34,591 nucleotides of DNA, taken from positions 1 through 34,591 of the forward strand of contig JAGBMJ010000081.1 in assembly GCA_017634975.1 (NCBI GenBank), read 5' to 3'. Within the stretch, counting starts at the first letter, position 1. Each line of letters begins with the position of its first letter. Shown piece by piece: positions 16,223 to 33,150 of the stretch. The notes below the pieces were generated by a model. That model had not been told where the DNA came from. It worked only from the letters and a program-made list of their open reading frames with translations, and did not search any database. The translations under genes and the position numbers were made by a program. The stretch is from Lachnospiraceae bacterium (GTDB taxonomy: Bacteria > Bacillota > Clostridia > Lachnospirales > Lachnospiraceae).

Positions 16223-18241
16223 ATGAACAAGAAACAAAAGAAAATGCTGCTCCGGATCATTATAGCGGCGGTATTGATGATCGTATTGCGGATCGCTTAT
16301 GCATTTCTCGGAGAGGATGAGACGCAGACGCGTGAAGCGGTGATCCGCGAGCCGTTCTGGTTCCTGCTTTATATGATCCCGTATCTGGTGATCGGATACG
16401 ATATCCTAAAGAAGGCGGGCAAGGGCATCTTAAACCGCCAGATGTTTGATGAGAATTTCCTGATGGCAGTGGCTACGGTAGGCGCCATCGCGATCGCACT
16501 GGTAGAGCAGAACGGGGATTATACCGAAGCCATTGCCGTAATGCTCTTTTACCAGATCGGCGAACTTTTCCAGAGTTATGCAGTGGGCAAGAGCCGCCGA
16601 AATATCTCGGCTTTGATGGATATCCGACCGGACTACGCCAACGTGGAGCGGGACGGAGAGCTGGAGCAGGTAGATCCGGATGAAGTGGAGACCGGAACGA
16701 TCATCGTGGTACAGCCAGGGGAAAAGATCCCGATCGACGGTATCGTTACGGAAGGACGTTCGACATTAAATACCAGCGCGCTGACCGGTGAGAGCCTGCC
16801 GCGCGAGGTACAGCAGGGCGATGAAGTGATCAGCGGATGCATCAATATGACCAGTATGATCCGCGTGAAGACTACGAAAGAGTTTGGCGAATCTACGGTC
16901 TCTAAGATTCTGGATCTGGTAGAGAATTCTTCCTCCAGAAAGTCGCAGTCGGAAAACTTTATTTCCAAGTTTGCGAAGGTGTATACACCGGCGGTCTGCA
17001 TCGGGGCACTGGCGTTGGCGTTGCTGCCCCCGCTGGTGATGCTTCTGATCGGAAAAGCACCGATGTGGAGCACCTGGATCTACCGCGCACTGACCTTCCT
17101 GGTGATCAGTTGTCCGTGTGCATTGGTGATCAGTATCCCGCTGACATTTTTTGCTGGGATCGGCGGGGCAGGCCACGCGGGTATCCTGGTGAAAGGTTCC
17201 AACTATCTGGAGCAGCTGGCCAGGACCAAAGTCGTTGCGATGGATAAGACCGGTACCATGACCAAAGGTGTCTTCGAAGTGGGCGGTATCCATCACAGCA
17301 GCATCGATAATGAAAAACTGCTGGAGTACGCGGCACATGCGGAATGCTATTCCACACATCCGATCGGCAAGAGCATACAGAAAGCGTATCTGAGCGGTAT
17401 GCTGTGGAAGGTGGATGAAACAAGTGGGGAAGCCAGACCGGTACCAAATCCGGCGGAAAAGGATAATCCTTCCAAGAGAGAGATCGACCGCGGACGTGTA
17501 GGCAGTGTGGAAGAGATCGGCGGCAACGGTATCCTCGCACAGGTGGACGGAAAAAAGATCGCCATCGGAAACCGCAAACTGATGGAACGGCAGGGGATCG
17601 AATTTTCCAAGTGTCATCACGTGGGGACGGTTGTACACGTTGCGATCGATGGTGTATACTCGGGACATATCGTGATCTCGGATGTACTGAAACCTACGGC
17701 AAAAGAGGCGATCGCTGCGATGCGTGCCGCAGGGGTTTCCAAAACCGTGATCCTGACCGGTGATGCCGCCAATGTTGCGGAAGATGTCGCAAAAGAACTG
17801 GGGGTGGATGAAGTTCATTCCGAACTGCTTCCGGCGGATAAAGTAACCGCAGTGGAAAAACTGCTGGACGAAAAGAATCAAAAGAATGGAAAAGATGTAC
17901 TGGCATTTGTCGGTGACGGCATCAATGATGCACCGGTACTTTCCAGAGCGGATATCGGGATCGCTATGGGAGCGCTCGGATCGGATGCAGCCATTGAAGC
18001 GGCGGATGTGGTGTTGATGGATGATGATCCGTTAAAGATCGCACAGGCGGTACGCATTTCCCGTAAATGCATGCGCATTGTATACGAGAATATTTACTTT
18101 GCGATCGGCATCAAAGTACTGTGCCTGATCCTCGGCGCCATCGGCTTCGCCAATATGTGGATGGCCATCTTTGCCGATGTCGGCGTAATGGTGCTGGCAG
18201 TACTCAATGCGATCCGGGCACTGTTCGTGAAGCGGCTGTAA
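16223..18241 (+). CDS. Zn/Cd/Pb-exporting P1B-type ATPase
   Basis: A 672-residue metal-transporting P-type ATPase that moves divalent metal out of the cell by ATP hydrolysis. Eight membrane helices are expected. Visible motifs: actuator T-G-E (188-190), membrane metal site C-P-C (297-299), phosphorylation motif D341-K-T-G-T, the H-P pair in THPIGKS of the nucleotide domain, and GDGINDAPVL. In the last membrane helix the A-D-V-G segment provides the Asp typical of the Zn/Cd/Pb subgroup. A soluble HMA domain is missing at the N-terminus and is encoded separately just upstream. The insertion in the nucleotide domain (DETSGEARPVPNPAEKDNPSKRE) is longer than usual. It is co-regulated with the HMA protein and with the ArsR gene downstream. 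Confidence 0.93.
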   Translation: MNKKQKKMLLRIIIAAVLMIVLRIAYAFLGEDETQTREAVIREPFWFLLYMIPYLVIGYDILKKAGKGILNRQMFDENFLMAVATVGAIAIALVEQNGDYTEAIAVMLFYQIGELFQSYAVGKSRRNISALMDIRPDYANVERDGELEQVDPDEVETGTIIVVQPGEKIPIDGIVTEGRSTLNTSALTGESLPREVQQGDEVISGCINMTSMIRVKTTKEFGESTVSKILDLVENSSSRKSQSENFISKFAKVYTPAVCIGALALALLPPLVMLLIGKAPMWSTWIYRALTFLVISCPCALVISIPLTFFAGIGGAGHAGILVKGSNYLEQLARTKVVAMDKTGTMTKGVFEVGGIHHSSIDNEKLLEYAAHAECYSTHPIGKSIQKAYLSGMLWKVDETSGEARPVPNPAEKDNPSKREIDRGRVGSVEEIGGNGILAQVDGKKIAIGNRKLMERQGIEFSKCHHVGTVVHVAIDGVYSGHIVISDVLKPTAKEAIAAMRAAGVSKTVILTGDAANVAEDVAKELGVDEVHSELLPADKVTAVEKLLDEKNQKNGKDVLAFVGDGINDAPVLSRADIGIAMGALGSDAAIEAADVVLMDDDPLKIAQAVRISRKCMRIVYENIYFAIGIKVLCLILGAIGFANMWMAIFADVGVMVLAVLNAIRALFVKRL

Positions 18242-18300
18242 GTGCTTGAGAAGATAGAGAACATATAACTTAAAACTCCTGCCTTATCTTAGGAGAATAA

Positions 18301-18425
18301 AATAACATATCCCTTGGCTTCCCCCTGGGGGACCAGTTCCTGCTTAACGAACAAAGTGAGTTTAGCAGGACTGTATGCCGTAGCGGGAAGCTGTCAGCGA
18401 AGCTGACTGATGAGGGGGAGTGTAG
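18301..18425 (+). repeat. Interspersed hairpin repeat before the ArsR gene
   Basis: A cluster of nested inverted repeats: TCCCCC-T-GGGGGA (about 18319-18331), TCCTGCT (18338-18344) with AGCAGGA (18364-18370), and GTCAGC-GAA-GCTGAC (18393-18407), closed by GAGGGGGAG. The last part resembles a dispersed intergenic repeat that I know from many Clostridia genomes. It could form a large RNA fold that sets arsR expression relative to the pump, or be inert. Confidence 0.65.
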
Positions 18426-18439
18426 GGAGACGATAAACC

Positions 18440-18811
18440 ATGAATAAACATGAACACAACACCGACTGTTGCGAAACACCGGAGGTACACAAAGACCTTC
18501 TGAAGATCGTTGCCGAGACTATGCCGGAAGAGACGGAACTTTATGACCTGGCAGAACTCTTCAAGATCTTCGGAGACTCTACGCGTATCCGCATCCTTTT
18601 CGTATTGTTCGAAGCGGAAGTATGTGTTTATGACATAGCAGAGGCTCTGAATATGACGCAGTCTGCGATCTCGCATCAGCTGCGCATCCTGAAGCAGAGC
18701 CGCCTGATCAAAGGCCGTCGCGAAGGGAAGCATATCTTTTACTCGCTGGCAGACGATCACGTCCGCTCGATCATCGCCGAAGGCAGGGAACATATCGAAG
18801 AAGATCATTGA
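18440..18811 (+). CDS. ArsR/SmtB-family metal sensor repressor
   Basis: A 123-residue winged helix repressor. The recognition helix region is ALNMTQSAISHQLRIL. The alpha-5 metal site is fully conserved: Asp105, His107, His118 and Glu121, spaced exactly as in SmtB (D-x-H-x10-H-x2-E), which senses zinc across the dimer. The alpha-3 motif reads E-V-C-V-Y-D, keeping just one Cys of the ELCVCD arsenic/cadmium motif, so an alpha-5 zinc sensor is favoured. An N-terminal HEHNTDCCE segment might form an auxiliary site. It should bind the repeat at 15923-15944 and release it when zinc is bound, inducing HMA protein and pump. The gap to the ATPase holds an interspersed repeat. Confidence 0.9.
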   Translation: MNKHEHNTDCCETPEVHKDLLKIVAETMPEETELYDLAELFKIFGDSTRIRILFVLFEAEVCVYDIAEALNMTQSAISHQLRILKQSRLIKGRREGKHIFYSLADDHVRSIIAEGREHIEEDH

Positions 18812-18835
18812 TCTCATGGGCACTATTGCAAGACA

Positions 18836-18886
18836 CATAACGATGTGCTACTTTTATAGTATATCCTAATTGGAGACATCGTTATG
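18836..18886 (+). promoter_or_regulatory. 11-bp inverted repeat spanning the kinase start codon
   Basis: CATAACGATGT (18836-18846) and ACATCGTTATG (18876-18886) are perfect inverted arms separated by 29 bp. The right arm contains the ATG start codon of the kinase gene (18884) and the ribosome site TGGAG lies just before it. TATAGT at 18855-18860 could be a -10 inside the loop. It may be an operator around a promoter, or an RNA hairpin that hides the start codon. Confidence 0.6.
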
Positions 18887-19564
18887 ACCTTGCAGGAAGA
18901 ATGCAGACTGTCCTACTATGAAGAAGTGAGACAGTTGAGCCAAAATCATAATGTTTTTCTGGTGCGGCATCAGGAATCGCAGCAGTTGTTTGTACGCAAG
19001 GTTTTGACAGCGTATAATCTCGAAATCTATCATTATCTGAAAGATCATCCGATTGATAATACACCGAAAATCTATGATCTGATCGAAGACGAAGGACGTC
19101 TGATCGTGATCGAAGAATATATTGCAGGTGAGACGTTGCAGAAAATCCTAATGGAACATGGGACGCCACCGCAAGCATGGGTATGCGGGATCATGCATCA
19201 ATTATGCTGTATTGTAGAAGAATTACATGCGGTTCAGCCACCAATTATACATCGGGATATCAAGCCATCCAATATCATTGTTACAGACCTTCAGGAAGTG
19301 AAACTGCTGGATATGAATGCTGCTCATCTGTCGCATCCGGATAAAAAAGAAGATACCGTACTGATGGGAACCAGGGGGTATGCAGCTCCGGAACAATATG
19401 GTTTTGGACAGTCGGATGTACGTACGGATGTATATGCGCTTGGCAAACTAATGGAACAGATGGGAGCCGGAAACGGAAGGTATGCAAGGATTATAAGGAA
19501 AGCTACACAGGTGGATCCTAAGAGACGATACCAAAGTGTGATGCAATTAGAAGCGGCACTGTAA
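18884..19564 (+). CDS. Short cytosolic Hanks-type Ser/Thr protein kinase
   Basis: A 226-residue kinase domain with no membrane helix or extracellular part. Motifs seen: Lys39 of subdomain II (FVRKV), hinge EEYIAGETL, catalytic H-R-D-I-K-P-S-N (123-130), D143-M-N in place of D-F-G, and G-T-R-G-Y-A-A-P-E-Q-Y-G followed by D-V-R-T-D-V-Y-A-L-G. The metal-binding Asp143 is kept, so activity is expected despite the D-M-N. The glycine-rich loop is degenerate (LSQNHNVFLV). The A-A-P-E-Q-Y-G clade is common in Lachnospiraceae. It is the first gene of a run with HTH-A (22 bp downstream) and membrane proteins. Unlike PrkC-type kinases, it has no PASTA repeats of its own; a PASTA-like domain occurs in the product at 22955. 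Confidence 0.9.
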   Translation: MTLQEECRLSYYEEVRQLSQNHNVFLVRHQESQQLFVRKVLTAYNLEIYHYLKDHPIDNTPKIYDLIEDEGRLIVIEEYIAGETLQKILMEHGTPPQAWVCGIMHQLCCIVEELHAVQPPIIHRDIKPSNIIVTDLQEVKLLDMNAAHLSHPDKKEDTVLMGTRGYAAPEQYGFGQSDVRTDVYALGKLMEQMGAGNGRYARIIRKATQVDPKRRYQSVMQLEAAL

Positions 19565-19586
19565 TCATTTTCTTGCGAGGGGTGTT

Positions 19587-20051
19587 ATGAAACAGGAAAC
19601 AACAACGGATCATCTGGATGAACTGCTGGAATCGGCAAGTGCCGAATCGTTGGACAGATATCTGAAAACACAGGTTGATCATATGATCGCATCAGATAAC
19701 GCGTTTGGCGAGTATGTGAAAAAACTGATCCGTGAGAAAAAAATGACACAGAAAAATGTATTTCTCGGTGCAGGGATCGATGAAAAAACAGGATATAAAT
19801 ATCTTTCCGGGGAAAAGCATACAAGTCAGAGGGACATTATCATAAGAATCTGCCTGGCTTCGCACATGTCGTTAAAAGAATGCGAACGAGCTTTGAAATT
19901 GTACGGTATGTCGCCGCTATACGCAAAAGTTGACAGGGATGCGGCGCTGATCATTGCTTTTAATAAGAGATGCTATGAAATCGGAGATGTGAATGAGATC
20001 CTGAACAGATACCACTTGGAGCCGTTGTATGAACCGTTTATATCGGAATAA
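19587..20051 (+). CDS. Helix-turn-helix protein HTH-A1
   Basis: A 154-residue probable DNA-binding protein. Residues about 40-110 form an XRE-like helical bundle with the signature F-G-E-Y-V, T-Q-K-N-V-F-L-G-A-G-I-D-E-K-T-G-Y-K-Y-L-S-G-E-K-H-T. It ends with a conserved C-terminal part (ALKLYGMSPLYA..DRDAA.IIAF, DVNEIL, LEPLYEP). The N-terminal 35 residues (TTDHLDELLESASAESLDRYL) are also conserved in the paralog at 29808. A third, shorter paralog is at 21486. GAGGGG upstream gives a good start. It follows the kinase by 22 bp, so it is a likely phosphorylation target or partner. A sequence-specific role at the C5-G5 promoter elements is inferred, not shown. Confidence 0.8.
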   Translation: MKQETTTDHLDELLESASAESLDRYLKTQVDHMIASDNAFGEYVKKLIREKKMTQKNVFLGAGIDEKTGYKYLSGEKHTSQRDIIIRICLASHMSLKECERALKLYGMSPLYAKVDRDAALIIAFNKRCYEIGDVNEILNRYHLEPLYEPFISE

Positions 20052-20080
20052 TACCTATAGAAAGATGATGCACGGAGATA

Positions 20081-21349
20081 ATGCTTAAAGAGAAAGAATG
20101 CGACACATATTATAGTGAGGGCATTGAAAAAATGCGCCTTATCGAAAAGGCGCAGAGACGTCCGCGTAAGAGCAGGGGCGGATATGTGGTTGGTGGGATA
20201 TTCCTGCTGTTTTTTGTTGTGGGCGGGATCATTATAATTACCGGGAAGACACGTAACGAGACTGCAACAGAGCGAGGCCGTATAGCAGAGAAGGTATCGG
20301 AAGAAATTGTAGAGGAGACAGATCAGGCAGAGACTGTGGAAGAAGAGAAGACGGAAATTGTATTTGAATCGCTTCTGGAACCATCTTCCGGAAAAGAGGA
20401 AGATCAGGATTTTGACCACGCGAGAAATCGAAGAATAGATATTCAGGGAATGACGATAGAAGTTCCGGCAGTATGGACGGTTTATCAGGATACCAATTAT
20501 TTCATTGAAACAGGAGCGGAGACGACCATGTTTCAATGGAGAGTGTGCGATGAAAAAAGACATGCCGAGATCCGTACAGAAGAGGAAATGCTGGAGAAGG
20601 CAGAAGATTTTGCTCAACATTGGAATAAGAATATGGAGGAAACGCAGATTGAAGAAGTGAAAATGGTAGAATATAATGGGCGCAAATATTCTTTGGTCCG
20701 TTTTCGGACAGCAATTATTGCAGAAGGAGAGAGAACCGATTTTGAATGTGAACTAGGATTGTTTTTTCATCCGCAGATCCGATATGCTGTCGGAATGATA
20801 ATGATGCAGAGCACGGAGAGCGCATACGATCATTTTGAAGATTTTCATAAGGTGATGGCAAGCGTGATCGAAACCGAACAGGCTCTGCCGCAGGATACAG
20901 CGGATATTGTTGAGATAGGAGATTTACAGTATTATCTGCCGAAGTACTATGATATCAGGAATGATGATTCTACAGACAATTATCAGAAGTATTCATCATC
21001 TTATGAGGGGTATGATGTTACTCTGATCCTTTCCTATGAAGAGGGGATAGGCGATTTTAAGGAAAAAACCGATGAGGAGATTGCAGAACAGTTTTTCAGA
21101 GGAGAACAGTATATGATACTGAAAACAGAGGATGCCATGGCAAATGATCTTCTGTGCAGGAATCTGTATTTGCTGATCCAAAGTGAGGATGGAGATCCTA
21201 CGCACTGTTATATCTCTTATGAGTATGACGAAAAACTTCATAGAAACAATTATGAGGTATTGTTTTCGCAGGTGATTGAAGTGGATGGTGTGGATTTCTT
21301 TAATGATTTTATTGATATGGTAGAGGGTGTGGAGCATATTCAGCCGTAA
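20081..21349 (+). CDS. Single-pass membrane protein with extracellular domain
   Basis: A 422-residue protein. The N-terminal 33 residues are charged and cytoplasmic (rich in Lys/Arg/Glu). One membrane helix follows (about 34-55, GGYVVGGIFLLFFVVGGIIII), then an acidic Glu/Thr stalk to about residue 110 and an extracellular region of about 310 residues. This region seems to hold two similar halves, each starting with a beta-rich segment (IDIQGMTIEVPAVWTVY; VEIGDLQYYLPKYYDI) and including a Phe/Tyr-rich core, like the secreted domains of unknown function next to clostridial kinases. No family name can be supported. It is 29 bp after HTH-A1 and probably belongs to the kinase operon as its envelope-facing sensor or effector. 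Confidence 0.75.
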   Translation: MLKEKECDTYYSEGIEKMRLIEKAQRRPRKSRGGYVVGGIFLLFFVVGGIIIITGKTRNETATERGRIAEKVSEEIVEETDQAETVEEEKTEIVFESLLEPSSGKEEDQDFDHARNRRIDIQGMTIEVPAVWTVYQDTNYFIETGAETTMFQWRVCDEKRHAEIRTEEEMLEKAEDFAQHWNKNMEETQIEEVKMVEYNGRKYSLVRFRTAIIAEGERTDFECELGLFFHPQIRYAVGMIMMQSTESAYDHFEDFHKVMASVIETEQALPQDTADIVEIGDLQYYLPKYYDIRNDDSTDNYQKYSSSYEGYDVTLILSYEEGIGDFKEKTDEEIAEQFFRGEQYMILKTEDAMANDLLCRNLYLLIQSEDGDPTHCYISYEYDEKLHRNNYEVLFSQVIEVDGVDFFNDFIDMVEGVEHIQP

Positions 21350-21357
21350 AATGGGAA

Positions 21358-21405
21358 AATTCCCCCTTTTTGGGGGCAATACGGAAATGTAAAATCTGCT
21401 AAACT
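21358..21405 (+). promoter_or_regulatory. C5-G5 / CAATACGG promoter element, copy 1
   Basis: AATTCCCCC-TTTTT-GGGGG (21358-21376), then CAATACGG (21377-21384) and an extended -10 TG-C-TAAACT (21397-21405). There is no good -35, so an activator bound at the C5/G5 repeat is likely. The distance from the last G to the -10 is the same as in the copies at 21861 and 30305. Confidence 0.75.
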
Positions 21406-21411
21406 GAATAC

Positions 21412-21457
21412 TGGCAGGAAGGAAGAGTGGAAGATATAAAGTCTGCCACTCTTTTTC
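21412..21457 (+). promoter_or_regulatory. Leader with competing hairpins (attenuator-like), copy 1
   Basis: Transcription from the extended -10 should begin near 21412. Two stems are possible: TGGCAG (21412-21417) / CTGCCA (21443-21448), and AAGAGTGG (21423-21430) / CCACTCTT (21446-21453) followed by T5. They share CCA at 21446-21448 and exclude each other; the second has terminator form. The leader is conserved at 30361-30405. Confidence 0.65.
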
Positions 21458-21485
21458 TATAGATGAATGGAGCGAGGGGGAGCAG

Positions 21486-21845
21486 ATGGTATCGGAGTTT
21501 ACGGCTTATATGAGAAAAATGCTGCAGAAGAAAGGCGTATCACAACAGCAAATGTTCCGGTCGGCGGATATCTCGGAAAAATTCGGTTATAAACTGATCT
21601 CCGGAGAGAAGCATACGATACAACGGGATATACTGATCAAACTTGGAATCGCTGCGCATTTCACAGAGGCAGAACTGTCAGAGGCACTGATCCTATATGG
21701 GATGGCGCCATTATATAAGCAGAACGGAAGAGATGTAGTGTTGATACAGGCGTTACAAGATGGCCTGCGTGAGATCGCCGATGTAAATGAATTGCTGGAA
21801 CAGGCAGGATTTGAAAGATTGTATGAATCTAAAAGAGAAAAATAA
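21486..21845 (+). CDS. Helix-turn-helix protein HTH-B
   Basis: A 119-residue shorter paralog of HTH-A1. It shares the core Q-Q-x-M-F-R-S-A-D-I-S-E-K-F-G-Y-K-L-I-S-G-E-K-H-T, the R-D-I-L-I-K helix, A-L-I-L-Y-G-M-A-P-L-Y-K, R-D-V-V-L-I and D-V-N-E-L-L, but lacks the N-terminal extension. The ribosome site GAGGGGGAG fits the ATG at 21486. It is encoded after the attenuator-like leader and directly before the third C5-G5-like promoter part. In the second locus only its first codons remain (30437-30484). This suggests that HTH-B is linked to the leader and controls the zinc-ribbon genes downstream. The DNA target is not known. Confidence 0.8.
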   Translation: MVSEFTAYMRKMLQKKGVSQQQMFRSADISEKFGYKLISGEKHTIQRDILIKLGIAAHFTEAELSEALILYGMAPLYKQNGRDVVLIQALQDGLREIADVNELLEQAGFERLYESKREK

Positions 21846-21860
21846 CAAAATTTTCACACA

Positions 21861-21908
21861 ATTACCACCGGAATGGGGGCAATACGAAATGCAATTATCT
21901 GATAGAAT
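21861..21908 (+). promoter_or_regulatory. C5-G5 / CAATACG promoter element, copy 3 (degenerate)
   Basis: ATTACCACC-GGAAT-GGGGG (21861-21879), CAATACG (21880-21886) and extended -10 TG-A-TAGAAT (21900-21908). The left C half-site is degenerate, the rest matches copies 1 and 2, and the last-G to -10 spacing is identical. No attenuator hairpins follow. Confidence 0.65.
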
Positions 21909-21952
21909 TAAATATATGCAGGAATTCAAAACGGATAGTGAGGAGGTGCAAG

Positions 21953-22939
21953 ATGAAGATTATCACATTAGAGTGTACGAATTGTGGTGGACACATAAAG
22001 GTTAATTCATCGTTGAAACAGGGAGTGTGTAATTTTTGCGGAACACCTTTTATGGTAGACGATGAAGTAAAACGTGTAAAAATCGATTTTGATGATGCTA
22101 CTCAAGTCGGGTATGATTTTGAAAAGGGAAGAATGAATGCGCAGAATGATGGTGCGGATCCGGCTTTGATTCAGGCTGTGCAGGCGTTGATAGAGCCGGT
22201 ATGTGGTTTGGATCCGTTAAGAGAACAAACGGCTATGCTTCGGAAGCAGTTGGAAAAGGATACCAGACAGGCGGAGTTTCTGCAAACAGATATGGGACGT
22301 TTTCTTCCGGCAGCGGTAGGTGCAGGTTTGATCATGCTGATCACTATAATGGGGACTGCCTCGGGTGGGGGGATATCGACCTTTTTTGGAGGATTGTTTT
22401 TTGCGACAGCTGTATTTGCCGGTATATTTTTTGGACAGAAAGTCTATGTCCGGGATCTGGAAAAAAAGAATGCACAAAATGTGTACGATATAGATAACAA
22501 TGATCAGGAAATAGAATATTTTCAAGAGGTATTAAAGCAGTATGATGTTAGTATAATACCGAAAAAATATAGAAATCGCGATGCGATGACCTATATTCAT
22601 CAAGTGTTGGAATGCAGGCAGGCGGTTACAATGCAGCAGGCAGTGAATCTTTACGAAGATGAATTGCGCAGAAGAGAAGAAGCAGCTCGCAGAGAGCGTG
22701 AATTGGAAATACAAAGGGAACAATTAGAATTACAGCGCCAACAAATGGAAGAACTGCAGTTGGCAGAGGAAGAGAGAAGAAGCAAAGAAACAAACAAAAA
22801 AGTTGCAGGGGCAGTTGCAACAGGTGCGTTGGCAGTCGGTGGGGCTGCAGTTGTTGGCGCAATGTCAAACAAAAAAGTAAGGAAGGCTGCCGGAAAAGTA
22901 GCCGGAAGCGTGGTGAAGGGAATTATCAGTCACCTGTAG
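21953..22939 (+). CDS. Zinc-ribbon / coiled-coil membrane protein
   Basis: About 328 residues from ATG 21953, which AGGAGGTG precedes; an upstream in-frame Met lacks a ribosome site. An N-terminal zinc ribbon has C-T-N-C-G (8-12) and C-N-F-C-G (26-30). Residues about 115-165 form two hydrophobic segments (VGAGLIMLITIMG; GGLFFATAVFAGIFF). A charged coiled coil follows (about 235-285, many R-R-E-E/Q-L-E units), then a Gly/Ala/Val-rich hydrophobic tail (VAGAVATGALAVGGAAVVGAM) and a Lys-rich end. It probably resides in the membrane with the zinc ribbon inside the cell. It is 15 bp from the next zinc-ribbon gene and shares its promoter. Function unknown; a scaffold between kinase or HTH proteins and the envelope is a guess. 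Confidence 0.75.
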   Translation: MKIITLECTNCGGHIKVNSSLKQGVCNFCGTPFMVDDEVKRVKIDFDDATQVGYDFEKGRMNAQNDGADPALIQAVQALIEPVCGLDPLREQTAMLRKQLEKDTRQAEFLQTDMGRFLPAAVGAGLIMLITIMGTASGGGISTFFGGLFFATAVFAGIFFGQKVYVRDLEKKNAQNVYDIDNNDQEIEYFQEVLKQYDVSIIPKKYRNRDAMTYIHQVLECRQAVTMQQAVNLYEDELRRREEAARRERELEIQREQLELQRQQMEELQLAEEERRSKETNKKVAGAVATGALAVGGAAVVGAMSNKKVRKAAGKVAGSVVKGIISHL

Positions 22940-22954
22940 GGAGGGTAGATATCT

Positions 22955-24577
22955 ATGGCTATGATTAAATGTTCATCTTGTGGAAGAGATGTATCGGATC
23001 AGGTTGAAACATGTTTATATTGCGGAAATAGAATAACAAAAGGAACTTCCTGGGTTCCGTTATCGTCGGATGGTGTTCAAAAGAATAGTGGGGAATGGAA
23101 ATCAACAGGAACTCAATCAGAGCGTAAAAATATGAATACAGGAACCGGTTTATCAAATGCAGGAGGAAATCTGTGGGAAAAGTTTATGGGATTATCCAAC
23201 AGTAAGAAAATTCTTACGGTATTTCTTGTCATTTTTCTGGGAATCCCTTTTTTGAAAGGATTTTTTGGAGCGTTCTCAAGTTATGGATCGTCAGGTTCCA
23301 GATCATATAATTATTCATCAACTACTCCTGCAAGTTCGACGCCGGAAGCAGTGCAGACAACTGCGGAAGACGATGGAAAAATTGCGATGCCGGTTACTTC
23401 ATCCTCCCTTTATGGAGAAAACTATGTAGATGTTGAAAAGATATTGAGGGGGGCCGGTTTTCAGAATATTTCTATGGAGCCGATTGATGATCTTGTAACA
23501 GGATGGATGGTAAGTGACGGTGATGTAGAAAAAGTGTCTATGGGAGGATATACATCATTTGATACATCCAGTCGCTTTGCCGCAGATACAGAGATCGTGA
23601 TCAGTTATCATACGTTTCCGGAAGATACGGATACAAAAACTGTCGCAAGTGCGGATGATACGGATTACATGAAAGAAGCGACAGATCTTTTGCAATCCAT
23701 ATATGAAGAAAACATGTCAGATATTGATTATGTGAAAGAAGCCACAGACTTGATCAATTCTGTAACAGGAAGTTCTTCAAACGGAAGCGGACAGATTTAT
23801 CAGTGTATAGGAATAGATTTTCCCATGCCGGATTATTACATACTTGAAGAAGATACTTCGGAAGAAGGTGATTTTCTTTATTTTGATGATGGAATAATAT
23901 TTGTTTTCCGCGGCCAGTCAAATAACTCGGATATTCTGGACAAAGATAATCTGCAAGAGGTTGTAAAAGAAATGGGAATGGATGGTAATTATAAGCTTAC
24001 CGGAGATTCACCTATTACTGTAGCAGGACAATCAGCAGAATTAATAGAATATGAAGATAAAGGCGGTGAGCTTGATATCATTGGAGCAGCAGTAGGAATT
24101 AAGAATGGAAACAATATTGCTATGCTTGTTGGAATGTGGGAAGAAGCAAACAGTAAGACGTATCTGGAAGATTTTTATCAGATGCTGAATAATGCGAAAA
24201 AGAGTTCCGGTACTGTAGCAGGAAACAGTAATGGAAGTAATACAAATACATCTGGTATGACTATGTCGCAAAAGAATGCTGTTCAGTCGGCAAAAGACTA
24301 TCTTGAGTTTATGGCGTTTTCAAGGAAAGGATTGATCGAGCAATTATCGTCCCAATATGGAGATGGATATTCGGCGGCAGATGCTACATTTGCAGTTGAT
24401 TATCTTGAGAAGAATGGTCTGGTGGATTGGAATGAACAGGCAAAAAGATCAGCACAGCAATACCTTTCTATAATGTCATTTTCTAAACAGGGGCTGATCG
24501 ACCAACTGACATCAGACTATGGAGATGGTTTTACGAAAGAACAGGCAGAGTATGCGGTTAGGGCGTTAGGCTACTAA
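22955..24577 (+). CDS. Zinc-ribbon membrane protein with PASTA-like and Ltp-type repeats
   Basis: A 540-residue protein. N-terminal zinc ribbon C-S-S-C-G (6-10) and C-L-Y-C-G (20-24); one membrane helix at about 88-108 (ILTVFLVIFLGIPFLKGFF). Then, outside: a PASTA-like domain (about 145-225: GENYVDVEKILRGAGFQNI, LVTGWMVSDGDVEKVSMGGY, VISYHTFPED), a middle domain (about 285-410) and two C-terminal Ltp-type repeats (about 435-540), each with A-x-x-Y-L-x-x-M-x-F-S-[RK]-x-G-L-I-[ED]-Q-L followed by Y-G-D-G-[YF] and A-x-[FY]-A-V. Ltp repeats occur in surface lipoproteins, including a streptococcal prophage protein that blocks phage DNA entry. PASTA domains of PrkC-type kinases bind peptidoglycan. 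Here the putative sensor is detached from the kinase encoded 4 kb upstream. Confidence 0.82.
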   Translation: MAMIKCSSCGRDVSDQVETCLYCGNRITKGTSWVPLSSDGVQKNSGEWKSTGTQSERKNMNTGTGLSNAGGNLWEKFMGLSNSKKILTVFLVIFLGIPFLKGFFGAFSSYGSSGSRSYNYSSTTPASSTPEAVQTTAEDDGKIAMPVTSSSLYGENYVDVEKILRGAGFQNISMEPIDDLVTGWMVSDGDVEKVSMGGYTSFDTSSRFAADTEIVISYHTFPEDTDTKTVASADDTDYMKEATDLLQSIYEENMSDIDYVKEATDLINSVTGSSSNGSGQIYQCIGIDFPMPDYYILEEDTSEEGDFLYFDDGIIFVFRGQSNNSDILDKDNLQEVVKEMGMDGNYKLTGDSPITVAGQSAELIEYEDKGGELDIIGAAVGIKNGNNIAMLVGMWEEANSKTYLEDFYQMLNNAKKSSGTVAGNSNGSNTNTSGMTMSQKNAVQSAKDYLEFMAFSRKGLIEQLSSQYGDGYSAADATFAVDYLEKNGLVDWNEQAKRSAQQYLSIMSFSKQGLIDQLTSDYGDGFTKEQAEYAVRALGY

Positions 24578-24614
24578 TGGAAGTGTCATCTTTGGCGGTT
24601 ATTTATGTATGGAG

Positions 24615-24662
24615 ACAGGTGAGTCTGTCGCACTGTTTTAGCGCGGCAGACTCACCTGTTTT
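24615..24662 (+). terminator. Strong terminator closing the first kinase/HTH locus
   Basis: ACAGGTGAGTCTG (24615-24627) and CAGACTCACCTGT (24647-24659) form a 13-bp perfect stem followed by Ts. It separates the zinc-ribbon genes from the AAA gene. Confidence 0.9.
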
Positions 24663-24664
24663 AC

Positions 24665-24693
24665 TTGACAATAACGAACGCACTTTCTAAAAT
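24665..24693 (+). promoter_or_regulatory. Promoter of the AAA/PD-(D/E)XK gene
   Basis: -35 TTGACA (24665-24670), 17-bp spacer, -10 TAAAAT (24688-24693). A strong ribosome site AAAGGAGG precedes the start at 24733. Confidence 0.85.
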
Positions 24694-24732
24694 ATATGAA
24701 AGAAGAGCAAACTGAGGAAAGGAGGTCTGAAA

Positions 24733-26355
24733 ATGGGGACATATTTAAATCCGGGCAATGGTGGATTTGAAAGAATTGTTTCAAGTGATTATGTGGATAA
24801 GACAGGGTTGATCAGTCTTATTAATGGGACAATTGGTACTACAAAGAGTCTTACCTGTATCAGCAGACCTCGCCGTTTTGGAAAATCCTATGCAGCTAAA
24901 ATGCTGTGTGCATATTATGATAAGACCTGCGATTCACATGATCTTTTTGATCGGTATGAAATTTCAGGAGATGAGAGTTATGAGAAACACATTAATAGGT
25001 ATCATGTGATCAATCTGGATATTTCCGGTTTTATTTCATCTGCAAAGTCGTCAGAGAAGCCGATAAGAAATGTACCCAAAGATATAGATAAAGCACTCCT
25101 GCAAGAAGTCAGATCTGTATGTTCGGAACTGAAGGAAAAGAATAATCTGAATGAATGTCTGCTTGAATTGGTAAGGAGCACCCAAACAAAGATTGTATTT
25201 ATCATCGATGAATGGGATTCCATGATCAGGGAGGCGAAGGATGATCCGGAAGCACAGGAAATCTATCTGAATTTGCTCAGAGGCTGGTTTAAGAATAATA
25301 ACTTTACCCCGGAAGTAGTAGCGGCGGCTTATATGACCGGAATACTTCCGATCAAGAAGGATGGATCGCAGTCGGCTATATCGGATTTTCAGGAATACTC
25401 TGTTTTGGAACCATTGCAGTTTGCAAAATATGTCGGTTTTACGGAGGAAGAAGTCCGAAACCAATGCGAAAAGATGCATAAAAGCTTTGAGAGTATGAAG
25501 AAATGGTATGATGGATATACCGTTGGCGACTGTCATTCTATTTATAATCCGTATTCAGTGATGCAGGCGCTGGAAAGCGGAAAATACAAATCATACTGGA
25601 AGAAAACCTCCGCGGCAGAAACATTAATGACATATATTGATATGGATCAGGATGGGCTGCAGGATGACATAGCAAGGTTGATCGCCGGAGAGACGATCGT
25701 GGTAGACACGGATTTCTTCCAAAATGATGTTGAGACGTTTACTTCAAAGGATGATGTGCTGACGCTTCTTATCCACCTGGGATATCTGACTTACGAAGAG
25801 GTATCCGAATCCTATGATGAAAATGATGAGCAGCTTACCGGATTGGCTCATATCCCGAATGAAGAGGTCAGATCTGAGTTTGAAAAAATACTCCGTAAAG
25901 CAAAGCATAAGGAACTGATCCGGTTGGTACAGAAATCAGACCGACTGCTTCAGGATACGATCGAAGGTAATGAAAACGCGGTTGCATGTGCAATTCAGGA
26001 GGTTCATGACTCTGAGTATGCTCCAAATTTCTATAATAATGAGCAGAGTCTGCGGTATGTGATCAAAATGGCATATCTTTCCTGCGTGGACCAGTATGCG
26101 AAGGTTGAGGAACTGCCGTCAGGACATGGGCTGGCGGATGTGGTATTTCTGCCGAACAGAAGATCATCTCTTCCGGCTATGATCATTGAGTTGAAATGGA
26201 ATAAGAGCGAAGAGGGAGCGATTCGCCAGATTTTGGACAAAAATTATCCGAAGATATTGGAACAGTTTGGAGGAAAGATCCTGCTCGCGGGGATTAATTA
26301 CGATGAAGAAACGAAAAAGCATAGTTGTAAGATCGTTTGCCATCAAAAAGTGTAA
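24733..26355 (+). CDS. AAA-ATPase-like protein with PD-(D/E)XK nuclease-like domain
   Basis: A 540-residue protein of the AAA-ATPase_like / PDDEXK_9 type common in Bacteroidetes and Clostridia. The N-terminus carries the family opening (NPGNGGFERIVSSDYVDKTGLI), a P-loop R-P-R-R-F-G-K-S and Walker B-like IVFIIDEWD. The C-terminal 110 residues show a nuclease-like core: GHGLADVVFLP (Asp), then MIIELKWNK (E-x-K), and a Gln in IRQILDKNY. Both the ATP and metal-binding residues are kept, so it may be active. The biological role of this family is not settled. Its own strong promoter and a terminator on each side make it an independent unit. Confidence 0.9.
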   Translation: MGTYLNPGNGGFERIVSSDYVDKTGLISLINGTIGTTKSLTCISRPRRFGKSYAAKMLCAYYDKTCDSHDLFDRYEISGDESYEKHINRYHVINLDISGFISSAKSSEKPIRNVPKDIDKALLQEVRSVCSELKEKNNLNECLLELVRSTQTKIVFIIDEWDSMIREAKDDPEAQEIYLNLLRGWFKNNNFTPEVVAAAYMTGILPIKKDGSQSAISDFQEYSVLEPLQFAKYVGFTEEEVRNQCEKMHKSFESMKKWYDGYTVGDCHSIYNPYSVMQALESGKYKSYWKKTSAAETLMTYIDMDQDGLQDDIARLIAGETIVVDTDFFQNDVETFTSKDDVLTLLIHLGYLTYEEVSESYDENDEQLTGLAHIPNEEVRSEFEKILRKAKHKELIRLVQKSDRLLQDTIEGNENAVACAIQEVHDSEYAPNFYNNEQSLRYVIKMAYLSCVDQYAKVEELPSGHGLADVVFLPNRRSSLPAMIIELKWNKSEEGAIRQILDKNYPKILEQFGGKILLAGINYDEETKKHSCKIVCHQKV

Positions 26356-26384
26356 GGGGCATCTCATAGATGGGGATGCCTTTT
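26354..26384. terminator. Terminator between convergent genes
   Basis: AAGGGGCATC (26354-26363) pairs with GATGCCTTTT (26375-26384) with two G-T pairs and an 11-nt loop; the Ts continue afterwards. It lies between the AAA gene and the convergent nuclease gene. Confidence 0.75.
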
Positions 26385-26392
26385 CTATTTTT

Positions 26393-27424: not shown

Positions 27425-27442
27425 ATCTGCCTCCATATACTT

Positions 27443-27537
27443 ATTATAGTAAATCACACAAAGATGTCTATTCTACAAAATAAACATAAATTATGTTGAA
27501 TACACAACAATATGTCGTATTGACAAAAAGAACGACA
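27443..27537. promoter_or_regulatory. Divergent promoters of the nuclease and surface protein genes
   Basis: Minus strand: -35 TAGACA (27465-27470), 16-bp spacer, -10 TATAAT (27443-27448). Plus strand: -35 TTGACA (27520-27525) with an AT-rich -10 near 27543. An inverted repeat TGTCGT (27514-27519) / ACGACA (27533-27538) flanks the plus-strand -35 and is a candidate operator. Confidence 0.65.
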
Positions 27538-27589
27538 ATATGATATGCTTATCAGTGTAGTGATGATATACATGACGGAGGTAGATTTT

Positions 27590-28315: not shown

Positions 28316-28346
28316 TATTGATAAAGTATATTTATGAGTACAGATT

Positions 28347-28392
28347 TGGCGGATTATCTCAATATTAGTGTGTGATGATCCGTCAGTTTTTT
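28347..28392 (+). terminator. Intrinsic terminator of the surface protein gene
   Basis: TGGCGGAT (28347-28354) pairs with ATCCGTCA (28378-28385) including one G-T pair, followed by GTTTTTT. Confidence 0.75.
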
Positions 28393-28433
28393 GAGTATCT
28401 TTACAAAACAGCACTATTACGATATAAAGATTA

Positions 28434-29807: not shown

Positions 29808-30284
29808 ATGGATAAAAAGAAAGAATCAACAACTGATCGATTAGAAGAGATACTGGAACAGTCCGGGGCAGATAAGCTGACGGAATATCTGACGCAGGAA
29901 AAGGTGAATTCGGCCGACCGAGAAGATCTGTTTGGCGAATACGTCAAATCTGTGATACGTGAAAAAGGATTCAAGCAGAAGGATGTTTTTCTTCGGGCAG
30001 GAATTGATGAAAAGTCAGGATATAAATATCTTTCCGGTGAAAAGCATACAAGCAACCGTGATCTGATCATTCGGATCTGCTTGGCGACACACATGACACT
30101 GAAGGAGAGTGAGCGTGCCTTGAAACTGTATGGGCTGTCGCCTTTGTATGCCCGGCTGGAAAGGGATGCGGTATTCATTATAGCGTTCAACCGAAGGATC
30201 TACGATATTGACGAGGTTAACGAGATTTTGAAAAGCCACGGATTAGAAGCGCTTTACGAACCTAAAATGCAGGATGGGAATTAG
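29808..30284 (+). CDS. Helix-turn-helix protein HTH-A2
   Basis: A 158-residue paralog of HTH-A1 (19587). It has the same N-terminal extension (TTDRLEEILEQSGADKLTEYL), the core F-G-E-Y-V-K-S-V-I-R-E-K-G-F-K-Q-K-D-V-F-L-R-A-G-I-D-E-K-S-G-Y-K-Y-L-S-G-E-K-H-T-S, and the C-terminal ALKLYGLSPLYA, RDAVFIIAF and EVNEIL blocks. No kinase gene lies next to this copy. There is no Shine-Dalgarno site before its ATG, while TATATT lies at 29798-29803, only 4 bases upstream, so a leaderless transcript or a different start is possible. It is followed at once by promoter copy 2 and the zinc-ribbon genes. Confidence 0.8.
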   Translation: MDKKKESTTDRLEEILEQSGADKLTEYLTQEKVNSADREDLFGEYVKSVIREKGFKQKDVFLRAGIDEKSGYKYLSGEKHTSNRDLIIRICLATHMTLKESERALKLYGLSPLYARLERDAVFIIAFNRRIYDIDEVNEILKSHGLEALYEPKMQDGN

Positions 30285-30304
30285 ATTTTGTCAAAAAAAG
30301 ATAG

Positions 30305-30354
30305 AATTCCCCCCTAATTTGGGGGCAATACGGCGTTGTAAAATCTGATAAACT
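30305..30354 (+). promoter_or_regulatory. C5-G5 / CAATACGG promoter element, copy 2
   Basis: AATTCCCCCC-TAATTT-GGGGG (30305-30325), CAATACGG (30326-30333) and extended -10 TG-A-TAAACT (30346-30354). It agrees with copy 1 in all parts and in spacing. Confidence 0.75.
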
Positions 30355-30360
30355 GAATAT

Positions 30361-30405
30361 TGGCAGGGAAGAAAGAGTGGAAGATGAAAAGTCTGCCACT
30401 CTTTT
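30361..30405 (+). promoter_or_regulatory. Leader with competing hairpins (attenuator-like), copy 2
   Basis: TGGCAG (30361-30366) / CTGCCA (30393-30398) competes with AAGAGTGG (30373-30380) / CCACTCTT (30396-30403) plus T5. Stem sequences are the same as in copy 1 while linkers differ slightly, which suggests selection on pairing. The predicted transcript start coincides with the first stem. Confidence 0.65.
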
Positions 30406-30436
30406 TCTGCATATAGAGGGAATGAGGGGCGAACAG

Positions 30437-30484
30437 ATGGCAACTGAATTTACAGAGTATATGGAAAACATTGACAGTAAGTGA
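30437..30484 (+). pseudogene. 15-codon stump of an HTH-B gene
   Basis: MATEFTEYM- aligns with the start of HTH-B (MVSEFTAYM-) and follows the same leader, but a stop comes after 15 codons and the zinc-ribbon gene starts 16 bp later. The rest of HTH-B was deleted. It may now act as a short leader peptide that brings ribosomes to the next gene. Confidence 0.7.
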
Positions 30485-30500: not shown

Positions 30501-31586
30501 ATGGCACTTATTATATGTACAGAATGCGGCAAGGAAATATCGGATAAGGCGAAGGTATGTCCGGGGTGTGGGTTTCCAATTGGTCAATCATATTTAGAAC
30601 AGTATATCGAATATAAGTCACAAGAAGGTAAGAGCGATGATCAGTCGGTTGATGATTTCAAAGAACCAAAGAGTGGTACATCGAAAAAGTCAATGATTAT
30701 AATTGGATCTGTAATACTTGGTTTAATTCTGATTACTGGAGTCGTTATTGCTATGGTGGTTAATAACAACCATAAGAAGGCGATGTATATTGCAGCTGTT
30801 GGAATGGTTGAAGATGGAAAGTATGAAGACGCAAAGGAAATATTTGAACAGCTACATGGATATAGGGACTCAAAAGAAAGAATCCTCTCTATTGATCTGG
30901 TTCTTGAAACAATGAATAAAGAGGATTTATATAAACTTGCTGAACGTAGTTTGAAAATGGGAAACTATGAAGAGGCGCTTTCACAGTTTACGGCATTAGG
31001 GGATTTTGGCGATTCTGCTGAAAGGGTAAGCTATGTGGAGGCATTGCAATATTGTGATATTGGAAACTATGAAGCGGCATACGATGTATTGGTTGGGGTT
31101 GCTCAAACAGAAGAAGTGAAGCTGTTGTTGAAACAGATATATAACGAAACACGTTTTTTTGAAGGGCTTACAGAATATCGTTCCTGGCTAAAAAATCCTG
31201 ATTCAATAACGGTGAATACGGTTAATGTTTATTACACTGATGAAGGAAAGGGCATGCCAGTTTTCATTGCGACAGCGGGAGGCGAAAATGGATTTGGAGG
31301 ATATAGTTCGGGTTATCTATTGATAAAAGCAGATGATACGAATAGTAATAAGTATATTTGTGTTGGAGCTTGTGACAGTTTGGATCCCGATGACTATACT
31401 TCATCAGATGATCTGTATGAGGGATTAATAGCGGTTATGATAACAGCGGTCCAAGAACATGCCAGTTTAGATGAAAATGGTGTTGATATAAACAGAGTTG
31501 AAAAGATCGTTAGCGGAGGAAACTTTAGCAGAATAACCATTGTTAAAGAGCTTACACTAAACATGTTTGAAGCAGCACAATTGTGA
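30501..31586 (+). CDS. Zinc-ribbon membrane protein with TPR-like repeats (1)
   Basis: About 361 residues from ATG 30501, with GGGGGGGAG upstream. An N-terminal zinc ribbon has C-T-E-C-G (6-10) and C-P-G-C-G (19-23). A polar linker leads to a membrane helix at about 68-91 (MIIIGSVILGLILITGVVIAMVV). Outside or in the periphery, three TPR-like units of the form G-[KN]-Y-E-[DE]-A-x-x-x-F-x-x-L-x-x-[YF]-x-D-S follow (about 105-210), then an unassigned 140-residue C-terminal domain. It is transcribed from promoter copy 2, after the HTH-B stump, and is 13 bp from the next gene. Codons ATA, AGA and TTA are frequent compared with the 10-18 kb region, hinting at a separate origin. Confidence 0.78.
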   Translation: MALIICTECGKEISDKAKVCPGCGFPIGQSYLEQYIEYKSQEGKSDDQSVDDFKEPKSGTSKKSMIIIGSVILGLILITGVVIAMVVNNNHKKAMYIAAVGMVEDGKYEDAKEIFEQLHGYRDSKERILSIDLVLETMNKEDLYKLAERSLKMGNYEEALSQFTALGDFGDSAERVSYVEALQYCDIGNYEAAYDVLVGVAQTEEVKLLLKQIYNETRFFEGLTEYRSWLKNPDSITVNTVNVYYTDEGKGMPVFIATAGGENGFGGYSSGYLLIKADDTNSNKYICVGACDSLDPDDYTSSDDLYEGLIAVMITAVQEHASLDENGVDINRVEKIVSGGNFSRITIVKELTLNMFEAAQL

Positions 31587-31599: not shown

Positions 31600-33150
31600 A
31601 TGGCTTTGATTAAATGCCCGGAATGTGGAAAAGAAATTTCTGATGCGTGCCTGTCTTGTCCGGGATGTGGTTATCCGATAACGGAGGAAATGAAGAACAA
31701 TCCCGTAAGTGTTTCAAAGAAAAACAACAAAAAAAGAAATATCAAATTAATAGTTGGTATTTGCATGGGAATTATTCTGACCGGTGTACTTATTGTCGTT
31801 ATTTTTGTATATAATTCGCCAAGTTCAAAATATAGCCGGGCAAATAATGCATTCGAAGCCGGAGATTACGAAAAAGCGATAAAGATATATTCCGGGCTTG
31901 GAAGCTATCTGGATTCATCTGATAGATTATTGCTGGCTACACAAAATTACAATTATGCAGAAGGAAATGAGGCTTTAAACAATGGAGACTATGATGGTGC
32001 AATTCAATTTTTTGAACAATGTCTGGAATTTGAAGATGCTTCAATTCTGATACAGAATGCACATTACCAAAAAGGACTTAAACAGGCAGAAAACGGAGAG
32101 TACAACAGTGCTATGGAGTCTTTTCGGAATGCGGGTGATTATGAGGATTCCGGGGAACAAATAAAGAGATGTTTCTATGAAATAGGAATTGATTATATAT
32201 CAAGTAATGAAATAGAATCAGCGGCTGAATGTTTTAAAAATGCTGAAGGATATAATGATGCTGAGGAACAGATAATATCATTAGGCGATACATATACAAA
32301 TAATGGAGAATATGAAAGCGCCATTAGAATGTATTCATATTCAGCGCACCCTACGAGCAGTAAATACTACTATTATGCAAAGGGGATGATCAGCAGAGAT
32401 AAGTTAGATTATGATGCTGCCAAAGATGCATTTAAGAGTGCCGGTGATGTATTGGATGCAAAGGAGCGATATGAGGAAAGCTTATATCGTTGGGCGAAGG
32501 AGGAGTTTAATTCTAAAGCATATGATCAGGCAAGATCTGATTTTAGTAGCTTGGGAGCATATGAAGATTCTATGATGATGGTCACTGCGTGTGACCTAAT
32601 GACGGCAAAAAGTGAAATGAATAATGGAAATCTTAATGCGGCAAGCAAAATTCTTTCTAATATCCCTGATGATTATGAGTATAATGGGGTTAAAGCGGCT
32701 GATTATAAAAAAATATTACAGGAGTGCGCCGGATGGGTGACCTTATGTGGACGATGGGTTAATACATCTCTCTATTTTGAAACAAATCAAGTTTATGACC
32801 GTACAGGAAGCAAAGACAGGTGGTCAGTAACAATAGATGATTCTACAGTTGCATATGTAGAAATACGATTGAAGATAGCCGATAATGGTTTCAAAACATT
32901 AAGCCTGGTTGGAACGGTATTGGTGCCCGATAATTATTCTTCAATAAAAGATTATCTTGATTATGAAGAACACAAATTCAGCTATTATGAAAGGGTTGAT
33001 TCTATAGGTACTGTGACTGCAGACAGTTATACAAAAGTTGTATTGGGATCGACAGTAAAAATAAATTATCATAAAGTGAATAATACATCAATGCATTTCA
33101 CAGAAAACTATATTTCGAATGCTACACTGTCCTTGCAATCGAGTTATTAG
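31600..33150 (+). CDS. Zinc-ribbon membrane protein with TPR-like repeats (2)
   Basis: A 516-residue protein. The zinc ribbon is C-P-E-C-G (6-10) and C-P-G-C-G (20-24); a Lys/Asn-rich linker precedes a membrane helix at about 48-70 (LIVGICMGIILTGVLIVVIFVY). About seven TPR-like units with [GN]-[DE]-Y-[ED]-x-A-[IM]-x-x-[FY]-x-x-[AL]-[GE]-x-[YF]-x-D-[AS] fill residues 80-350. The last 150 residues are a beta-rich domain (RWVNTSLYFETNQVYDRTG; SSIKDYLDYEEHKF). TPRs bind proteins or peptides, so it probably collects an envelope signal or partner. GGGAGGA precedes the start and a terminator follows 36 bp after the stop. It is a paralog of the product at 30501 by domain order. Confidence 0.78.
   Translation: MALIKCPECGKEISDACLSCPGCGYPITEEMKNNPVSVSKKNNKKRNIKLIVGICMGIILTGVLIVVIFVYNSPSSKYSRANNAFEAGDYEKAIKIYSGLGSYLDSSDRLLLATQNYNYAEGNEALNNGDYDGAIQFFEQCLEFEDASILIQNAHYQKGLKQAENGEYNSAMESFRNAGDYEDSGEQIKRCFYEIGIDYISSNEIESAAECFKNAEGYNDAEEQIISLGDTYTNNGEYESAIRMYSYSAHPTSSKYYYYAKGMISRDKLDYDAAKDAFKSAGDVLDAKERYEESLYRWAKEEFNSKAYDQARSDFSSLGAYEDSMMMVTACDLMTAKSEMNNGNLNAASKILSNIPDDYEYNGVKAADYKKILQECAGWVTLCGRWVNTSLYFETNQVYDRTGSKDRWSVTIDDSTVAYVEIRLKIADNGFKTLSLVGTVLVPDNYSSIKDYLDYEEHKFSYYERVDSIGTVTADSYTKVVLGSTVKINYHKVNNTSMHFTENYISNATLSLQSSY

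Follow-up and report, generated by a model that had tools for sequence, protein, structure and literature searches.

A serine/threonine kinase gene that adjoins a helix-turn-helix regulator gene and a putative operator for membrane protein genes in Clostridia

Introduction

Serine/threonine kinases that control a DNA-binding protein encoded nearby are represented by PknH–EmbR and AfsK–AfsR. Here we describe a gene set that resembles these pairs in a 34,591 nt stretch of DNA from a Lachnospiraceae bacterium (contig JAGBMJ010000081.1, one contig of the 4.36 Mb assembly GCA_017634975.1; the whole stretch is hereafter the window). As in the known pairs, the kinase gene lies close to the gene for a DNA-binding regulator. 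Whereas the known regulators carry FHA or large regulatory domains, the regulator in the window is a 150-amino-acid Cro/C1-like protein of the helix-turn-helix (HTH) type with an N-terminal threonine and an adjacent putative operator. A kinase gene adjoins an HTH regulator gene in many Clostridia, rumen bacteria included, and the pair is often followed by a conserved element that stands before genes for membrane or secreted proteins.

The window kinase has in common with the PASTA kinases PknB, PrkC and StkP (NF033483) a Hanks-type kinase domain with the HRD aspartate and the lysine. It differs from them in its length of only 226 amino acids without a transmembrane (TM) segment or PASTA domains on the chain, in its NF033483 score (92 bits against a cut-off of 450), and in its putative dedicated HTH partner. 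The use of a Cro/C1-type HTH protein at an operator centred near −42, the class II activator position, is known from lambda CI at PRM. The window regulators have a similar type of HTH and a similar operator position, the relation consisting only of a sub-threshold HTH_26 match, and they differ in having a kinase as partner. Membrane proteins with an N-terminal CxxC..CxxC zinc ribbon and a TM segment are represented by TcaA/YvbJ-like proteins. Another such protein, Llmg_0524, is described as binding zinc and contributing to cell-wall integrity (PMC4628341). The zinc-ribbon (ZR) proteins of our locus share the ribbon and TM segment with both, but their outer domains are Ltp, TPR, DUF4352, DUF5067 and DUF6591, and their genes stand behind the putative operator.

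Clostridioides difficile CD2148, considered as a relative, is set apart by its description in PMC9674922 as a protein without PASTA domains and catalytic residues. According to one review, the average bacterial genome has few Ser/Thr kinase genes, with targets characterized as pleiotropic instead of exclusive (PMC4601284). In the present case, the sequences of many genomes show a kinase together with a regulator that is likely dedicated to it, a likely phosphosite and a likely operator. How such kinases reach specific promoters could therefore be tested directly, and two small proteins and a 48-bp DNA would suffice for this. If our interpretation is true, it would provide a function for a widespread set of unnamed Clostridia genes and may reveal a route from signal to genes that is perhaps undescribed; a search of titles and abstracts, with most of the subscription literature outside its scope, found no description of such a kinase–HTH pair.

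Results and discussion

Kinase and HTH genes are linked

The six genes in 18884..24577 are open and co-directional, and their coordinates and products agree with those given by the sequence-only reading of this DNA: a cytosolic kinase, a first HTH protein, a single-pass membrane protein, a second HTH protein and two zinc-ribbon membrane proteins.

18884..19564, + strand: Hanks-type Ser/Thr kinase, cytosolic, 226 amino acids, with D-M-N at the D-F-G position (PF00069, Pkinase, E 9e-23; catalytic residues in alignment A2)
19587..20051, + strand: HTH-A, Cro/C1-type regulator with conserved N-terminal Thr7 (HTH_26 match, alignments)
20081..21349, + strand: M422, single-TM protein with ectodomain, candidate sensor (hydropathy; homologue at the same position in genome G028)
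21486..21845, + strand: HTH-B, same family, without the N-terminal extension and Thr7 (HTH_26 match, alignment)
21953..22939, + strand: ZR333, zinc ribbon, hydrophobic segments and long charged tail (CxxC..CxxC and TM calls; start ATG at 21953 chosen by eye)
22955..24577, + strand: ZR540, zinc ribbon, one TM segment and ectodomain with two Ltp repeats (PF13248, E 7.8e-6, below cut-off; PF07553, E 1.8e-38)

Three samples of genomes were used to establish how widely this arrangement recurs. An HTH alignment of 21 rows (A1) yielded 141 stretches in named genomes, of which 127 were confirmed and 80 kept as loci; these are nearest relatives and are partly redundant, the closest three being from Lachnospiraceae of sheep omasum and roe deer rumen. 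A less biased sample comprised 295 genomes of the order, searched for the HTH family at E ≤ 1e-8 and for the kinase at E ≤ 1e-40 with a limited number of candidates scored per genome. A genus-level search covered 35 genomes. At these thresholds the HTH family is present in at least 89 of the 295 order genomes (43 of 130 genera) and the kinase in at least 100.

In 67 of the 80 named loci a kinase open reading frame (ORF) lies less than 500 bp from the HTH gene, on the same strand in 35 and on the opposite strand in 32. Two further loci have the kinase within 2.5 kb, and in 11, some of them at contig ends, there is none. The order sample gives a similar picture, with a kinase less than 1 kb from 80 of 128 HTH hits, an HTH gene less than 1 kb from 79 of 134 kinases (58 genomes), and an HTH gene at this distance from 48 of the 50 best-scoring kinases. 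Zinc-ribbon genes are likewise enriched near HTH genes, as detailed below. Kinase, HTH and zinc-ribbon membrane genes recur together and are not found mostly apart, in support of the gene set of the earlier reading. The gene set is no chance neighbourhood, and the partnership of kinase and HTH protein is the firmest step of our proposal.

A conserved threonine in the HTH family

HTH-A and HTH-B are 47% identical over 111 amino acids and belong to one family, which also includes HTH-C, encoded in another cluster of the window and paralogous to HTH-A (64% identity). All three score just below the gathering score of 22 bits for HTH_26 (PF13443), with 20.5, 21.4 and 19.2 bits for HTH-A, HTH-B and HTH-C respectively, and a search for solved relatives of the family gave matches only at E 0.19 or worse.

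The N-terminus of these proteins is variable except at position 7 of alignment A5, where threonine is found in 67 of 71 rows and serine in one. Among 137 distinct HTH proteins surveyed for Thr7 and a neighbouring kinase, the residue is present in 98 of the 101 with a kinase at 600 bp or less, the exceptions being a truncated HTH, one without the extension and the second HTH of its locus. It is present in seven of the ten whose kinase is farther off (the other three are HTH-B forms) and in 12 of the 26 without a kinase, a group that includes distant or ragged sequences and contig ends and in which the clear losses of Thr7 are those of loci L090, L102 and L103. The difference between HTH proteins with and without a kinase is marked (Fisher 3e-9, ancestry ignored). 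Given the gene linkage and the conservation of this residue, we propose that the HTH protein is phosphorylated by its partner kinase, for which Thr7 is the most likely candidate site.

A palindrome at fixed distance from an extended −10 promoter

Exactly three copies of GGGGGCAATACG are present in the window, one ahead of HTH-B, one ahead of ZR333 and one in the second cluster, and no further exact copies were found elsewhere in the same genome. Each copy contains the right half of a palindrome; from the start of this half to an extended −10 hexamer (TGnTAnnnT) the distance is 28 nt in all three window copies and in three relatives.

21358..21405, + strand: operator/promoter 1, CCCCC-N5-GGGGG followed by extended −10 TGCTAAACT, right half 28 nt before the −10 hexamer (profile E 2.3e-6 in its own genome; training site)
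21861..21908, + strand: operator/promoter 2, CCACC-N5-GGGGG followed by extended −10 TGATAGAAT at 28 nt (profile E 1.5e-4; training site)
30308..30355, + strand: operator/promoter 3, before the zinc-ribbon genes of the second cluster (profile E 1.3e-5; training site)

Many other loci have the same layout, with the consensus CCMCC-N5-GGKGG, a short distance 3′ of the stop codon of the HTH gene. In a first count, which accepted a palindrome up to 200 nt after the HTH gene and left the offset of the −10 hexamer free between 20 and 36 nt, a palindrome followed 55 of 82 HTH genes. The offset was 28 nt in 39 cases and 29 nt in 11; four were weak and one left no room. Across the rest of the loci, 851 kb in all, there were 194 palindromes (0.046 per 200 bp). 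A second count was based on called genes, with an offset free between 15 and 44 nt and with 443 other genes that precede a gap as controls. By this measure a palindrome follows 49 of 73 HTH genes and 22 of 443 others, and the full layout with the −10 hexamer at 28 or 29 nt follows 43 of 73 and six of 443, respectively (Fisher 2e-36, ancestry ignored). One of these six non-HTH genes precedes an HTH-B gene (L053) and two precede kinase genes (L105 and L120). When the palindromes are read on the opposite strand, 43 of 49 lack a good −10 hexamer and the remaining six have six different offsets. Sites also occur before zinc-ribbon or HTH genes remote from an HTH stop codon (L045, L038 and L041).

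If the −10 hexamer is taken to start at −12, the dyad lies at about −43, and the 40 aligned sites have no −35 consensus. The fixed offset of 28 or 29 nt, a centre near −43 and the missing −35 consensus correspond to the geometry of a class II activator, whose operator is centred near −41.5 beside a weak −35 region.

A profile of these 40 sites (R1) finds four strong sites in the source genome: the three window training sites and one at the end of another contig (C51:154), from which a zinc-ribbon TM gene is about 1 kb distant, with no clear gene intervening (L188:154-1811). After these comes a match at E 0.06, which corresponds to operator 2 on its opposite strand. Several of the weak genome-wide matches are hairpins with T runs or coding sequence, and therefore only sites at E ≤ 1e-3 or stricter were counted, some of which are still doubtful. 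A threshold of E ≤ 0.01 gives a site in 18 of the 35 genomes searched in the genus. At E ≤ 1e-3 a site is present in 12 of the 14 genomes with a strong HTH (E < 1e-15) and in four of the 21 others (Fisher 1.4e-4, ancestry ignored); some of these 12 genomes supplied training sites, and the site in G014 is not beside its HTH gene. In the 295 order genomes, with strict filters and 20 candidates scored per genome, nine sites reach 1e-4, and seven of them lie about 500 bp or less from an HTH-family gene, the exceptions being C51 and one site in G060. The seven consist of two window training sites, three sites 3′ of the HTH gene on the same strand (G170, G216 and G299) and two in opposed orientation. 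Of the ten loci from the order search with the best HTH matches (L131–L140; the window is L131), nine carry a site at E ≤ 1e-4. This is not so for loci with weaker HTH matches, and the operator therefore belongs to the core of the family. From its adjacency to the HTH genes, its co-occurrence with them and its rarity, we infer that the HTH protein binds this putative operator.

The first ORF after 50 sites encodes an XRE-type HTH protein in 12 cases, a secreted or single-TM protein in 11, a zinc-ribbon TM protein in nine, a multi-TM protein in seven, an HTH-family member in two and another product in seven; two sites are at contig ends. A membrane or secreted product is among the first two genes at 43 of the 50 sites, a count that has no base rate and was not used as evidence. 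The Pfam names in the scanned products include DUF4352, DUF5067, tRNA_anti-like, DUF6591 and zinc ribbons, and some products have none. The gene list of the sequence-only reading for an envelope set in 18884..24577 stands, and is extended by this cis element and by the paralogous cluster described below, neither of which it had listed.

Forms of the kinase and a candidate sensor

The window kinase retains the HRD aspartate and the N-lobe lysine, as previously claimed, with D-M-N in place of D-F-G (alignment A2), and hydropathy indicates no TM segment. Its nearest solved relatives by sequence are the protein kinase 4eqm, which we take to be PknB of Staphylococcus aureus, and PknB chains, presumably of Mycobacterium tuberculosis. 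The 80 loci contain 68 kinases that score more than 200 bits, which we classed by regular expression and hydropathy. An N-terminal zinc ribbon is fused to 25 of them, 35 carry two to four TM segments C-terminal to the kinase domain, two have one TM segment and six are bare (some cut short or missed by the expression). D-x-N stands at the D-F-G position in 55 of the 68 (five not read), a further difference from the PASTA kinases.

One relative of the window kinase (80% identity, genome G032) continues into a TM segment and an ectodomain (L031:7096-8751), whereas in the window the kinase and the single-TM protein M422 are separate proteins. This arrangement supports a detached sensor in the window, with M422 as the candidate. 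The earlier idea of a detached PASTA-like sensor thus gains from this fusion and from the TM segments behind the kinase domain in about half of the surveyed kinases, but its PASTA character did not find support. No solved relatives of M422 were found at E ≤ 1. By eye, the G032 kinase matches the window exactly over its first 80 residues and over about 55 bp of upstream DNA but diverges thereafter (L031:7040-8751), a pattern that looks like recent exchange inside the gene. A promoter 5′ of the window kinase was also seen by eye only and was not used as evidence.

Zinc-ribbon membrane proteins

ZR540 matches 4eqq (E 1.7e-8) and carries the Lipoprotein_Ltp repeat in two stretches, which bears out the Ltp-type domains proposed earlier. 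The PASTA-like domain proposed alongside them was not recovered: PASTA (PF03793) gives no Pfam match in ZR540 at E ≤ 1, nor any at E ≤ 0.1 in five related proteins (two from L109 and one each from L114, L045 and L038), so that ZR540 as a PASTA protein has no profile support.

Zinc-ribbon membrane genes number 24 in the 222 kb that lie no more than 1.5 kb from an HTH gene (1.08 per 10 kb); their density falls to 0.47 per 10 kb at 1.5–3 kb, and only five such genes are found in 498 kb beyond 3 kb, a near-to-far ratio of 10.8. With their genes located behind the conserved operator and promoter, these proteins are most simply, and likely, outputs of the HTH regulator and not links between sensor and kinase.

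A proposed signalling pair and its alternatives

Our preferred interpretation, to which we give slightly better than even credence, is that the two genes encode a dedicated Ser/Thr-kinase signalling pair in which the kinase phosphorylates the HTH protein and the HTH protein activates the operator-linked genes for membrane and secreted proteins. A signal would reach the kinase through fused TM helices, through a fused zinc ribbon or, in the window, probably through the separate single-pass protein M422. The kinase would then phosphorylate its partner, most likely on Thr7, and an HTH dimer, bound to CCMCC-N5-GGKGG around −43 and adjoining a −35 region that lacks a consensus, would activate the extended −10 promoter from the class II position. 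It is this operator position that suggests activation. The output would be a small regulon composed of a second HTH protein (HTH-B here, an XRE regulator at 12 of 50 sites) and zinc-ribbon membrane or secreted proteins; the kind of products suggests that it is probably an envelope response. As HTH-B has no N-terminal extension, it may bind the operator independently of the kinase and provide a feed-forward arm. More broadly, such pairs might constitute a Ser/Thr counterpart of two-component systems that is distributed among Lachnospiraceae, Oscillospiraceae and other Clostridia. It would combine one Hanks kinase, whose sensor is exchangeable (TM helices, zinc ribbon or detached ectodomain), with a cognate HTH response regulator phosphorylated on a single N-terminal threonine and with one conserved class II operator for envelope genes, a proposition that we regard as evenly poised.

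Several observations weigh against this interpretation. The Fisher values take no account of common ancestry. HTH-C and others retain Thr7 without an adjacent kinase, and this residue, at the start of a helix-like stretch, might serve as a helix cap. The full layout is absent after 30 of 73 HTH genes, and none of 20 loci with weaker HTH matches (L141–L160), many of them still beside kinases, has a site at E ≤ 0.1. Some genus-wide sites resemble hairpins or fall in coding sequence, the counted site of G014 included, and the sites of G186 and G209 face the end of the HTH gene from the other strand. Covariation between operator bases and the recognition helix peaks outside the helix, and ancestry therefore dominates this signal. 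A T run follows the palindrome at 23 of 49 sites, where it may therefore be, or also be, the terminator of the HTH gene. M422 has a single homologue among the 80 loci (L053), which leaves its sensor role weakly founded, and the fused kinase ectodomain of L051 (the same gene as in L031) does not match M422 (phmmer, E ≤ 0.01).

The HTH protein could instead be a repressor that binds the same palindrome and is released by phosphorylation. Many Cro/C1-type proteins repress, and the site abuts the −35 region, but sites of repressors more commonly lie across the promoter or the start and are variable in position, whereas those described here are upstream of the core promoter at a fixed 28 or 29 nt and lack a −35 consensus; we regard repression as unlikely. 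If the palindrome merely ended transcription of the HTH gene and an ordinary promoter came after it, the T runs, which by eye belong mostly to the group with zinc-ribbon kinases, would be explained. Yet 26 of the 49 palindromes and all three window sites lack a T run, the spacing to the −10 hexamer is fixed and confined to one strand, palindromes are rare after other genes, and sites also exist away from HTH stop codons, all of which makes a terminator very unlikely.

We give still less weight to the earlier suggestion that zinc-ribbon proteins are the cytoplasmic link between the sensor and the kinase or HTH protein. The ribbons fused to 25 of 68 kinases make an upstream role possible for this domain, and to that extent the suggestion holds; the membrane genes themselves stand behind the operator in the window and its relatives, and zinc-ribbon TM genes are present in only 28 of 80 loci, some of which are cut by contig ends. 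Finally, a kinase next to an Xre-type HTH protein is also the layout of HipBA, in which case the kinase would be a toxin held by the HTH protein, and a phage-defence module is suggested by PADLOC PD-T4-6 kinase models that match the window kinase (E 8e-29) and by the presence of Ltp repeats in a phage exclusion lipoprotein. The window kinase is of the Hanks type, however, with no HipA family among its Pfam matches at E ≤ 1; the PADLOC matches span only about 140 of 327 model positions, which are the generic kinase core; and the operator usually stands before third genes and not before the kinase–HTH pair. A toxin–antitoxin or defence module is thus highly improbable.

Leader hairpins, a second cluster and neighbouring genes

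In the window the first operator is followed in order by a hairpin, HTH-B, the second operator, ZR333 and ZR540. A paralogous cluster at 28565-33150 comprises a CDF zinc-type exporter, HTH-C, an operator, a hairpin, a remnant of HTH-B and two zinc-ribbon TPR membrane proteins. The remnant between HTH-C and the zinc-ribbon genes makes the two clusters look like duplicates.

21417..21458, + strand: leader hairpin followed by T run, terminator- or attenuator-like (fold z-score −3.2)
29808..30284, + strand: HTH-C, paralogue of HTH-A (sequence comparison)
30363..30410, + strand: leader hairpin followed by T run, as in the first cluster (fold z-score −5.1)
30437..30484, + strand: 15-codon remnant resembling the start of HTH-B, MVSEFTAYM (by eye)
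30501..31586, + strand: ZR371, zinc ribbon, TM segment and TPR-like ectodomain (domain matches, hydropathy)
31600..33150, + strand: ZR516, zinc ribbon, TM segment and TPR ectodomain (domain matches, hydropathy)

The hairpin and T run are present in all four copies folded (z −3.2 to −5.1), relatives L051 and L052 among them, and Rfam gives no match in 18300-33500 at gathering score. Their location between the operator and the next gene makes an attenuator possible.

Metal genes flank both clusters, with a Cd/Zn-type P-type ATPase and an ArsR-type regulator directly 5′ of the kinase (16223-18811) and the CDF exporter at the second cluster. Directly 3′ of ZR540 is an AAA-ATPase_like/PDDEXK_9 gene (24733-26355) with its own promoter-like site at 24665-24693. 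Between this gene and the second cluster, a DNA/RNA non-specific endonuclease and a secreted protein (26393-28315) each have a terminal CxxC motif (CGRCHPF and CSKCF); L031 has genes of equal length and order to this pair, and similar endings are found in proteins of the L038 cluster.

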